A stretch of DNA of 64,000 nt from Prochlorococcus marinus str. MIT 9515 (GTDB lineage Bacteria > Cyanobacteriota > Cyanobacteriia > PCC-6307 > Cyanobiaceae). The position numbers were made by a program, and so were the translations under genes. The stretch is taken from NCBI RefSeq assembly GCF_000015665.1, contig NC_008817.1, positions 620,001-684,000 on the forward strand, read 5' to 3'. Below are positions 8,922-17,318 of this stretch, piece after piece. The notes beneath the pieces were generated by a model. It was not told the origin of the DNA. It saw only the letters and a program-made list of their open reading frames with translations, and ran no database searches. Position 1 is the first letter of the stretch. Each line of letters opens with the position of its first letter.

Positions 8922-10301
8922 TTGAATATTTCTTTCCTACAAAATAAAGATGTTTTTTCAAATTCCCTTTTAATAAGCTTTTCCGGATTTTTAATAATAT
9001 CTTTTTTCTTGATATTTGGGAGAAGATTAAAACTAGCTGTTCAATTAGAAAGATTTGGATTACCCATCGCAGTTATTTCAGGTGTCGCTGGTATCTCAAT
9101 AGGACCTTATGGTTTAATCCATTTTTTATCTAAAGAGACTACAAGTGTTTGGAGTAATTTCCCAACTCCTCTATTGTCATTAGTTTTTGCAACTTTGATG
9201 ATGGGAAGACCAATACCTAACATTAATGGTTTAATTAAGCCTATTGTCAACCAGTTTTTACTTGCTCTTTCCTTAGGGTTTGGCCAGTTTTTTATTGGTG
9301 GATTAGTTGTTAAATACCTTTTAGCTCCTCATATGGATATAAATCCTTTAATGGGATGTTTGATAGAGGTTGGTTTTGAGGGGGGGCATGGAGCTGCCAC
9401 TATTATTGGAGAAAGTTTTGATAGACTTGGATTCTCAGATGGACTTGATCTCGGACTAGCGATGGCAACAATGGGACTTTTGACGTCTTCATTATTAGGC
9501 AGTATATTCATTTTTATTGGAAGAACTTTAAGGCTTTCAGATACAGAGGAAATTATAGATAAAAAAGAAAATTTAAATACAAATATAAATCTTAAAACCG
9601 AATTTTTAGTAGATTTGAGAGTATTGCTAATAAATCTTGGTTTTGCAGGTTTAGCAATCATTTTTGGTGTATTGCTTCTTCAGTTTTTAAGATATATTTC
9701 AAATTACTTTGGTGAATTTTCAAGAGAAATTATCTTTTCACTTCCTGTCTTTCCTCTTATTCTTATAGGCTCTCTTTTGATAAGATATATTTTAGAAAAA
9801 ACAAAAAATACAGATTTTATCTCTAATATTCTTCAAAGAGAAATAGGCATACTATCAACAGATTTATTGATTTTTACAGCAATGGCAAGTTTAGATATCG
9901 CAACTGTTTTTGAAAATTGGGTTCTTATATTATTGCTTACTATTTTTGGTTTGTTCTGGAATTTGATTTGTATTGCTTATTTTGCATACTTTATATTTGA
10001 TGATTACTGGTTTGAGAAAAGTTTAATAGAGTTTGGTAATTCTACAGGTGTAGTTGCTTCGGGTTTATTATTGTTGAGGCTTGCAGATCCTAAAAACATT
10101 TCTAAAACTCTTCCTATTTTTACATCTAAACAACTTTTCGCCCAATTAATACTATCAGGAGGCTTTTTTACTGTAGTAGCACCTCTAGTTATATCTAAAA
10201 TCGGACTAGATTATTGGACAGAGATTTGCGCATTAATAACTTTTTTAATTATTATTATCGCTTTTTTATTTAATAAAAAATTTTCTGCAAGTTACCAATA
10301 A
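8922..10301 (+). CDS. Sodium:glutamate symporter family (GltS-like)
   Basis: This 459-residue membrane protein has about 11-12 hydrophobic segments. The glycine-rich FEGGHGAATIIGESFDRLGF and the second-half STGVVASGLLLLRLADP match the two re-entrant-loop halves of the ESS/GltS family, which imports glutamate with sodium. The start is TTG (MNISFLQNKD). Family is clear; the real substrate in Prochlorococcus is untested, and an organic anion other than glutamate is possible. Confidence 0.85.
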   Translation: MNISFLQNKDVFSNSLLISFSGFLIISFFLIFGRRLKLAVQLERFGLPIAVISGVAGISIGPYGLIHFLSKETTSVWSNFPTPLLSLVFATLMMGRPIPNINGLIKPIVNQFLLALSLGFGQFFIGGLVVKYLLAPHMDINPLMGCLIEVGFEGGHGAATIIGESFDRLGFSDGLDLGLAMATMGLLTSSLLGSIFIFIGRTLRLSDTEEIIDKKENLNTNINLKTEFLVDLRVLLINLGFAGLAIIFGVLLLQFLRYISNYFGEFSREIIFSLPVFPLILIGSLLIRYILEKTKNTDFISNILQREIGILSTDLLIFTAMASLDIATVFENWVLILLLTIFGLFWNLICIAYFAYFIFDDYWFEKSLIEFGNSTGVVASGLLLLRLADPKNISKTLPIFTSKQLFAQLILSGGFFTVVAPLVISKIGLDYWTEICALITFLIIIIAFLFNKKFSASYQ

Positions 10302-14094: not shown

Positions 14095-15096
14095 ATGTTG
14101 AAAGATAAAAATATCTTAATAACAGGTGGTAATTCTGGGATTGGTTTTTATGCAACTATTAACTTATTGAAGGCTAAAAATAATTTATATATTCCAATAA
14201 GATCTATACCAAGAAAAGATCAGTTTTTTTTTAAACTTCTCAAATATTTTGATAAAAAATACCTTGATAAGTATCTAAATCTTATTGAAAATATTGATTT
14301 AGCTAATTTAAGAAATATTGAAATACTAAGAGATTATTTAAACAAAAAAAATGTATCTTTTGATGTGATTATCCTTAATGCAGGTTTGCAATATACGGGA
14401 TCTTTTTATCCTAAAGTCTCAAAACAAGGCATTGAACTAACTTTCGCAGTCAATCATCTCGCACATTTTTACTTAGTTAATTCTCTTATCGGACTAATAA
14501 ATAATAAAAAAGAATCAAGAATTATTATTACATCATCTGATGTACATGATCCAAAGAGTTCTGGAGGCAATGTTGGTAAAAAAGCGGGCTTAAATAACCT
14601 AGTCAATTTTAAACAAGAAATTACAGGGAAATATTTAAATTTTAATTCAGATAAAGCTTACAAAAATAGTAAATTGTGTAATATATTATTTGCTAAAGAA
14701 CTTTCAAAAAGATTACAAATTAAAGCTTATGAAGTAGCTGTTATTACTTGGGCCCCAGGACTTGTAATTCCAAATGAAGATTTAGGTTTCTTTAGATATA
14801 GTAAAAAGTTTAATTTTTTTGGGTATATCATTTTTTCTATTATTGCAAAAAATATTTTAGGTATTTCTGAAAATGTAGAAAATGCAGGAAAATTGCTTTC
14901 TGAAATTGTTACTGATCCTGAATTCAATAATATTAAGTACCTGCATTTAAGCAATAAGCTTGTCTTTTTTAAAAAACATAAATTACTCAAAAGTGAGATT
15001 AGTGAAGAAGCTAATAAAAGTGATCTTGCTTTAAGACTTTGGAATCTAAGTGAAGAATTATGCCAATCATTTGGGTTCGTATCTCTCAATATTTAA
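14095..15096 (+). CDS. SDR protein resembling protochlorophyllide reductase
   Basis: The protein has 333 residues. It shows TGGNSGIGFYATINLLK at the N-terminus, FAVNHLAHFYLVN in the middle and YKNSKLCNILFAKEL as the catalytic Tyr-x-x-x-Lys. The length, the HLAHF block and the YK(N/D)SKLCN motif recall light-dependent protochlorophyllide reductase and its plant-like paralogues more than classical SDRs. It is probably not Por itself, since the Cys-bearing substrate region of Por is not evident. The last 30 bp overlap the convergent mscS gene. Confidence 0.8.
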   Translation: MLKDKNILITGGNSGIGFYATINLLKAKNNLYIPIRSIPRKDQFFFKLLKYFDKKYLDKYLNLIENIDLANLRNIEILRDYLNKKNVSFDVIILNAGLQYTGSFYPKVSKQGIELTFAVNHLAHFYLVNSLIGLINNKKESRIIITSSDVHDPKSSGGNVGKKAGLNNLVNFKQEITGKYLNFNSDKAYKNSKLCNILFAKELSKRLQIKAYEVAVITWAPGLVIPNEDLGFFRYSKKFNFFGYIIFSIIAKNILGISENVENAGKLLSEIVTDPEFNNIKYLHLSNKLVFFKKHKLLKSEISEEANKSDLALRLWNLSEELCQSFGFVSLNI

Positions 15097-16122
15097 TGTT
15101 TGAGTTGGGAATGCAAATTCTATTTTGTTAGCGGAGAATTCTTCAATAATTCGTAAGTTAATACTTTGTTGAGCTTCCATAGCAGCTAAATAATTATTTG
15201 TTGGTATGAAATAAACTAATTCGAAATTTAGACTGAAGTCTCCGAAATCTGTAAAGTGACATCTATCAAAAGAGGCATCTTTAGTTTCTTCAATAATTTT
15301 TTTTATAATATTTGGAATCATTTTCATTAGAGATGGAGAGGTTTCATAAACTACGCCCAATTTATGAACAAGTCTTCTTTTCTTCATTTGAGCATAATTT
15401 GAAATTATCCCATTAGTTAATGCACTGTTGCTCATTACTACTACTTCTCCGTTGATACTTCTTATTCTTGAGGATCTTACTCCTACCCTTTCTACCATTC
15501 CTAATACGCTATCGGACTTTATAAATTCACCTTTTTGAAAAGGTTTATCAAGCAAAATTGTTATGTATTCAAAAAATTCTTGAACTGGATCTTTTAATGC
15601 TAAACCTGCCCCGATACCGCCTGCACTAAGCAATGCCCAAATCGCAGTCATTTTCACACCTATATTTTGCAAGAAAAATATAGATCCTATAGTCCATGTA
15701 AATGCTTTAATTAAAGGTGTTAATGATGAGATCATCGAACTGATTGAAGAATCATCAATTTTTGCAGTGGATTCTGTTAAAGATTTAATTAGTACTTTAT
15801 TAAGAGCTTTAATAATGATTATTAATATCAGTAATTTTTGAATATTTAAGATTACAGATATAAAAGTTATTTCATCAGTGAAAAAATAATCAATTGAGAA
15901 ATAGCCTGATAGAAGAAAACCTATTGGCTTTAAAACTCCATTAATTGTATCAAAAATAAAATCATCGAAATTTGTTTTTGTTCTTTTAGAAATCCTTTTA
16001 AAAATAACCTTGGAAATTTTAGATATTATGATCGATATTATTATTCCAATAAGAAATATCGAAATTGCCAAAATCAATTTTTCTGTAAATACTTTCATAT
16101 CTAATGAATTCTCTAAAAACAA
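15067..16122 (-). CDS. MscS-family mechanosensitive channel
   Basis: The 351-residue protein has three to four N-terminal membrane helices up to about residue 175, then the pore-lining Gly/Ala helix GGIGAGLALKDPVQEFFEYI and the beta domain (KPFQKGEFIKSDSVLGMVERV). It should act as an osmotic release valve in the inner membrane. The C-terminal domain is short, as in minimal MscS members. Confidence 0.9.
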   Translation of the reverse strand: MFLENSLDMKVFTEKLILAISIFLIGIIISIIISKISKVIFKRISKRTKTNFDDFIFDTINGVLKPIGFLLSGYFSIDYFFTDEITFISVILNIQKLLILIIIIKALNKVLIKSLTESTAKIDDSSISSMISSLTPLIKAFTWTIGSIFFLQNIGVKMTAIWALLSAGGIGAGLALKDPVQEFFEYITILLDKPFQKGEFIKSDSVLGMVERVGVRSSRIRSINGEVVVMSNSALTNGIISNYAQMKKRRLVHKLGVVYETSPSLMKMIPNIIKKIIEETKDASFDRCHFTDFGDFSLNFELVYFIPTNNYLAAMEAQQSINLRIIEEFSANKIEFAFPTQTLNIERYEPK

Positions 16123-16164: not shown

Positions 16165-16733
16165 TTATCTTTGATTTTTAATTATATTGCTAATTTCTTT
16201 AAATTCTTTTCTATCTGAGGTTTGACAAATTTCAAAAATTATTGATTCGGTAGTAGTAATAATTGCTCCTTTATGTAGCATTCTCTGTAGTGCGATTTCG
16301 TGATCTAAATCGTTTCTACTTCCCATGGCATCGCATATTAAAAGTACTTCATATCCCTTTTTTAAAAATTCTAAGACACTTTGCTGAATACATATGTGTG
16401 TCTCAAATCCGCAAATTATTAAATTAGTAATATTTTTTTTAGCAAATTCTTCAAAAATAAGTTGACTACTAGCTAAGCTAAAATCCATCTTTTCGATTTG
16501 AGTAAAATTAACTTCAGGTAATATATTTGGGATTGTTTTGCCCAATTTCAGAGGGTTTTGCTCTGAGAGGAAAATGTTTTTTTCTAGGATTTGGTAAGCT
16601 CTCAATAGCTTCTTGATGTTTTTAATTATTGAATCTTTATTATTAATTGGATTTATAATTTTCTCCTGAATATCTATGAGAAGTAAGGCTTTTTTTTTTT
16701 TTTTTCTGATTCGCTTCTAATAAAATTTTTCAT
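16165..16733 (-). pseudogene. Isochorismatase-family hydrolase interrupted at a run of 16 A
   Basis: The frame reading ALLLIDIQEKIINPI, which bears the conserved catalytic Asp, has no ATG, GTG or TTG upstream. It enters the protein directly from the homopolymer at 16690-16705 (16 A on the coding strand). An ATG at 16733 starts MKNFIRSESEKKK in another frame; one extra A (17) would join it to the rest as a protein of about 189 residues. The downstream part is intact, with EKMDFSLASS (catalytic Lys) and ETHICIQQ (catalytic Cys). A TTG at 16605 could begin a 146-residue product, but that lacks the Asp. It may be a true frameshift, a read error, or a gene decoded by slippage. Confidence 0.75.
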
Positions 16734-16865: not shown

Positions 16866-17318
16866 TTGTCGCTATCTTCTAAATACAAAGTAATTACTTC
16901 CCCTTTAGGAGATGGCCTACACAAAGATGGTAAAAGGTTAACCCCTCAAAGACTTAAAGTTTTAAATTTATTTGAGAATATTGGAGCAGGAAATCATTTA
17001 AGCGCTGAACAGGTGCATGAAAAATTAGTTCAATCTAGTTCAAAAGTTTCTTTGGCAACAATATATAGAACTTTGAGACTTCTTGTTCAAATGGGCTTAT
17101 TACATGAATTAGAGCTTAGTGAAGGGGGGCATAGATACGAATTGCTTTCTAATGAAACTGCAGATCATCATCACTTGATTTGCATAAGGTGTGGAAGAAC
17201 TGAAGAATTTGAAAATGATGATGTGTTAAAGGCTGGTAAAGTAGCCGCAAAAGTTAATGGTTTTAAACTTATTGAATCTTCGTTAAATGTTAGAGCTATA
17301 TGTCCTAATTGTGTTTAG
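16866..17318 (+). CDS. Fur-family metalloregulator
   Basis: The 150-residue protein has the winged-helix DNA-binding region KRLTPQRLKVLNLFE through KVSLATIYRTLRLLVQMG, then the metal-sensing HHHLICIRCGRTEEF and a C-terminal CPNC. Together CIRC and CPNC give the structural zinc site of the family. It represses genes in response to iron, zinc or peroxide; which metal this copy senses cannot be told from sequence alone, though the fur-like upstream palindrome favours iron. The start is TTG. Confidence 0.92.
   Translation: MSLSSKYKVITSPLGDGLHKDGKRLTPQRLKVLNLFENIGAGNHLSAEQVHEKLVQSSSKVSLATIYRTLRLLVQMGLLHELELSEGGHRYELLSNETADHHHLICIRCGRTEEFENDDVLKAGKVAAKVNGFKLIESSLNVRAICPNCV

Follow-up and report, generated by a model that had tools for sequence, protein, structure and literature searches.

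An out-of-frame 16-adenine tract at the start of an isochorismatase-like hydrolase gene of Prochlorococcus marinus MIT 9515: a possible recent and leaky frameshift

Frameshifts in poly(A) runs that are rescued by RNA polymerase slippage have been described for the endosymbionts Buchnera and Blochmannia (Tamas 2008; Wernegreen 2010; both as cited in PMC5009743 and PMC8254509), and 12–50% of the transcripts are corrected at such runs in endosymbionts (PMC5009743). A second system is the chloroplast atpB gene, for which full-length protein was detected in Oenothera I-iota and in tobacco lines that carry an oligoA frameshift, and the +2A class was the one best corrected in the oligoA stretch, in tobacco chloroplasts as well as in the corresponding assay in E. 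coli (PMC8254509). In the bacteria studied, both the polymerase and the ribosome are prone to slip on long A runs (PMC5009743), and the cellular RNA polymerase of E. coli is less prone to do so on runs of A than on runs of T (PMC6260861). The heptamer A_AAA_AAG is the shift site of dnaX, and CC is its most shift-prone 3' dinucleotide in E. coli (PMC5009743). The sole lysine tRNA of E. coli, in which the heptamer is slippery, is tRNA-Lys(UUU). For Prochlorococcus, our literature search found no direct report of homopolymer slippage or phase variation.

The locus analysed here, an A16 tract in a hydrolase gene of MIT 9515, may be a free-living counterpart of the endosymbiont and chloroplast cases. 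It shares with Buchnera and Blochmannia an AT-rich reduced genome, an out-of-frame poly(A) run, and a gene under selection, whereas MIT 9515 is free-living with large populations, the frameshift is confined to one strain and is not conserved, and the rescue is a proposal. The likeness to chloroplast atpB, which belongs to a cyanobacterium-derived system, lies in an indel within an oligoA stretch close to the 5' end of the gene, and in the +2A class, to which the A16 allele corresponds relative to 14 A; however, the full-length protein was detected in the chloroplast and is a prediction for MIT 9515, where no downstream stem-loop stands out. The relevant features of the window, by which we mean the whole 64-kb stretch of DNA that was analysed, are the following.

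16690–16705, minus strand: A16 tract, a private expansion in a non-conserved N-terminal tail
16674–16733, minus strand: short ORF of 19 codons in the zero frame, MKNFIRSESEKKKKKPYFS*, which opens with the conserved ATG and closes with TAG
16165–16689, minus strand: body of an isochorismatase-like (MAR1/ISOC-type) cysteine hydrolase, 174 codons and TAA, with no in-frame standard start
16672–16674, minus strand: putative catalytic Asp codon (LLLIDIQ, position 6, D6), assigned by the family motif
16489–16491, minus strand: putative catalytic Lys codon (IEKMDFS, position 67, K67), aligned with PDB relatives
16390–16392, minus strand: putative nucleophile Cys codon (GFETHICIQ, position 100, C100), aligned with PDB relatives
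16165–16605, minus strand: longest ORF with a standard start in the hydrolase frame (TTG, 146 aa), without the Asp and the first strand
16689–16695, minus strand: zero-frame heptamer A_AAA_AAG, adjoined by CC (16688–16687), a candidate −1 ribosomal slip site
16866–17318, plus strand: Fur-family-like regulator gene, divergent, a conserved neighbour (family by sequence look)
15067–16122, minus strand: MscS-like channel gene, downstream on the strand of the hydrolase, a conserved neighbour (family by sequence look)

In the deposited sequence the homopolymer is exactly 16 adenines long and begins 28 bases on from the ATG at 16733, counted from its A. The first codon of the isochorismatase-type frame (ALLLIDIQ...NQR*) follows directly at 16689, and this frame is open for 174 codons up to the TAA at 16165. 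The ATG frame and the hydrolase frame are one base apart, and the former ends at its TAG after 19 codons. Between the preceding TAG and the end of the run, the hydrolase frame consists of the codons KRIRKKKKK only and contains no ATG, GTG, or TTG. A sequence-only reading had recognised the genus correctly and had placed the tract, the adjoining ALLLIDIQ segment, the startless frame, and the one-base offset of the ATG exactly as we find them. That reading had also named 17 A as the length that gives an intact protein; this length would indeed join both frames and restore the hydrolase, but 14 A would do so equally. A rare ATC start at 16710–16708, the sole candidate between the TAG and the run, is possible for the hydrolase frame and was set aside, as the relatives use ATG. 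The internal TTG at 16605 was rejected because it drops the Asp and the first strand, and activity of the predicted 146-residue product is not expected.

The hydrolase body, which includes the peptide NITNLIICGFETHICIQQSVLEFLK, matches the PF00857 profile (4.2e-28; residues 1–149 against profile positions 2–175 of 175), and by sequence comparison with the PDB it is nearest to the MAR1/ISOC-type proteins 8rl0, 2b34, and 8rkz. The match to these hydrolases is of full length and includes the Asp, Lys, and Cys, which agrees with the earlier assignment as an isochorismatase gene and suggests a PF00857 member with a catalytic triad of predicted role; the difference is that the start region of the MIT 9515 gene is out of frame. 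The gene lies between the divergent Fur-like and the MscS-like gene, a synteny kept in all eight relatives checked, and it is present in 149 of 200 genus genomes, or 62 of 66 good genomes. When 13 hydrolase-less genomes were searched for both neighbours, a full copy of either was found in none, and these absences therefore look like missing stretches or contigs, or block losses, and not like the loss of a single gene. Hydrolase, Fur-like, and MscS-like genes are all absent in G035, G102, G114, G151, and others. A search of IMG/VR for the hydrolase gene gave no match.

The comparison of the same locus in other Prochlorococcus genomes, which the sequence-only reading had proposed, is a comparison between species and not between strains of one species, as the closest genomes share at most 86% protein identity. 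This highest value belongs to G093, the closest relative. The ATG at 16733 aligns with the start used by the relatives, for example MKNSIRTELPRKN-ALFLIDIQ in G093. Every distinct relative listed keeps the hydrolase start in frame, and the runs in the stretch preceding the domain reach at most 9 A; in G093 the run is A6, and the distance from the ATG to the GCC/GCT codon is 39 nt, compared with 44 nt in MIT 9515. The A16 tract is thus an expansion private to MIT 9515 that lies in the variable N-terminal tail of a gene under selection, in line with the fresh frameshift that had been among the options considered. The hydrolase body is free of stops and differs from G093 with a dN of 0.07 and a dS of 0.41. 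Depending on the outgroup, 7–11 nonsynonymous and 11–15 synonymous changes are assigned to the MIT 9515 branch, and 13–15 nonsynonymous and 11–16 synonymous changes to the sister branch. By these counts, the MIT 9515 branch has no nonsynonymous excess over its sister, and its body is under comparable purifying selection. When 30 changes were simulated under a rough neutral model, a stop arose in 76% of the runs, and the hydrolase has therefore probably been functional during most of the period after the two lineages parted. The earlier argument that the clean body speaks against old decay is borne out, and a very recent loss would still be compatible with it.

Such a recent loss, in which the 16 A are real, slippage is negligible, and the strain has lost the enzyme, appears unlikely to us. 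It would fit the position of the frameshift directly after the start and the fact that every standard start loses the catalytic Asp, and the same hydrolase gene has an independent late frameshift in G079 (contig 7, around 9570–9600, L209) at a G9 run, which is known from one draft genome and could be erroneous. However, the body contains no second lesion, the gene is as widespread as described above with no clean single-gene loss among the genomes checked, and the slipperiness of long A runs in the bacteria studied also speaks against this reading.

Within the 64 kb of the window, one A16/T16 run was seen and 0.05 were expected (4/100 shuffles). In the genome of 1,704,176 bases, in which we inspected the stretches around runs of at least 12 A, there are 2 runs of at least 16 against about 1.25 expected under a first-order model, and runs of 12 or more number 12, with about 42 expected from first-order composition; a run of A14 or longer occurs in 135 of 266 genus genomes, or about half. 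As observed and expected numbers of the longest runs are similar genome-wide, the length of the A16 tract by itself is unremarkable for an AT-rich genome. What is unusual is where it lies, out of frame and only a little way into a conserved gene. Thirty genus loci around long runs were checked mechanically by frame only, without homology, and several long ORFs among them begin at or just after the run with an ATG of their own; the A16 hydrolase locus stood out by a startless frame of 174 codons abutting the run.

A plausible cause of the expansion is the absence of MutL, which would render homopolymers unstable and favour their growth. The MutL family (PF01119) was found neither in the MIT 9515 genome nor in any of the 266 genus genomes, whereas the same search detected it in 11 of 14 control genomes, Synechococcus elongatus included; two genes of the MutS family are present in MIT 9515. 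The absence of mutL has been reported for MED4 and several P. marinus strains (PMC2921402, PMC5101192). MIT 9515 has three further private A14–A16 tracts in coding genes, of which two are clearly in frame.

1306509–1306524 of the genome: A16 that directly follows the GTG start codon in an FtsQ-like gene (family judged from the sequence), in frame, private among the genomes compared
945716–945729 of the genome: A14 within a conserved 172-codon ORF, in frame, private
Gene of a small protein: A15 close to the C-terminus, private

The relatives have FVKDKQKLKNKR-like tails at the position of the A16 in the FtsQ-like gene, and mixed Asn/Lys codons at the position of the A14.

Runs of 16 adenines are difficult to call and unstable when cloned. 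As the two internal tracts whose frame can be judged are in frame as deposited, the A16 in the hydrolase gene could be a one-base error. In that case the true allele would have an in-frame length of 17 or 14 A, or several lengths would coexist in the culture, and the 16 A as deposited would be a miscall, a cloning slip, or the allele of one clone. That all relatives listed are in frame at the hydrolase start, and that the body is under purifying selection, would also be explained in this way, but the other long runs of the assembly fit their frames, and nothing points to a general fault in run lengths. We regard an error or a mixed culture as a serious possibility, though short of probable, and as a close rival to the recent, leaky, and reversible frameshift with a real A16 that we favour. 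The latter we hold tentatively, at not quite an even chance.

According to our favoured reading, replication slippage in a MutL-less lineage would recently have expanded a dispensable N-terminal tail to A16, which we infer to be the true length, and would thereby have put an otherwise functional (predicted) hydrolase gene one base off its frame. The allele is probably young, readily reversible, and leaky. Complete enzyme, MKNFIRSESEKKKKK-ALLLIDIQ..., could arise in two ways: the RNA polymerase may add one extra A, or the ribosome may slip by −1 at A_AAA_AAG_CC. The slipped share of expression would yield the full enzyme, and the remainder the 19-residue peptide.

That slippage takes place in MIT 9515 is suggested by analogy to the described systems, and the ribosomal route has parallels to the programmed −1 frameshifting of dnaX, namely the same heptamer and frame relation, the 3' CC, and a single tRNA-Lys: among 37 tRNA genes found, the only lysine tRNA is tRNA-Lys(UUU). 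As a run of this length class produces A_AAA_AAG automatically, the heptamer is no evidence of design. No structural stimulator stands out in the first 80 nt after the run (folding z +0.45 versus shuffles), no Shine-Dalgarno-like or structured stimulator for the heptamer was found at the locus, and the site is absent in the relatives. Unlike dnaX, the MIT 9515 gene thus has neither a conserved site nor a recognisable stimulator, and its heptamer is most likely an incidental slip site and not programmed frameshifting. A stem of five pairs (UUCUC/GAGAA) that begins 6 nt past the heptamer was discarded, being weak and lying in a region with no folding advantage over shuffled sequence. That no downstream RNA structure stands out, and that the E. 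coli polymerase slips less on A, weakens the slippage reading. When the locus is compared with the class of slippage-rescued poly(A) frameshift genes, the long out-of-frame A run and the selected body are present, but the frameshift is not kept across lineages, as the relatives are in frame.

Phase variation, with the tract as a maintained on/off switch for the hydrolase, had been offered as another option and seems highly improbable to us. The tract is suitably placed, about two thirds of its possible lengths would be off, and MutL is undetectable; however, none of the relatives carries a long tract at this place, so that the switch is not conserved, and a cytosolic hydrolase that is not exposed at the surface is not a typical target.

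If the 16 A are real and the enzyme is made, the rescue of poly(A) frameshifts would extend to an abundant free-living bacterium, homopolymer instability would be tied to the genus-wide absence of MutL, and such genes may be misannotated as broken. Should the length prove wrong, a routine annotation correction would follow. A more far-reaching idea, that a MutL-less free-living cyanobacterium routinely tolerates out-of-frame poly(A) alleles of core genes via slippage, with the tract length tuning the enzyme dose along the lines reported for endosymbionts and demonstrated in chloroplast mutants, is speculative, and we consider it improbable.

Long A runs were also seen at the starts of other genes. 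In four relatives (L119, L121, L140, and L141), a run of A15–A18 abuts the ATG of a similar ORF of about 55 codons, a seemingly recurring poly(A) leader, and similar A runs abut starts at L129, L131, and L137.
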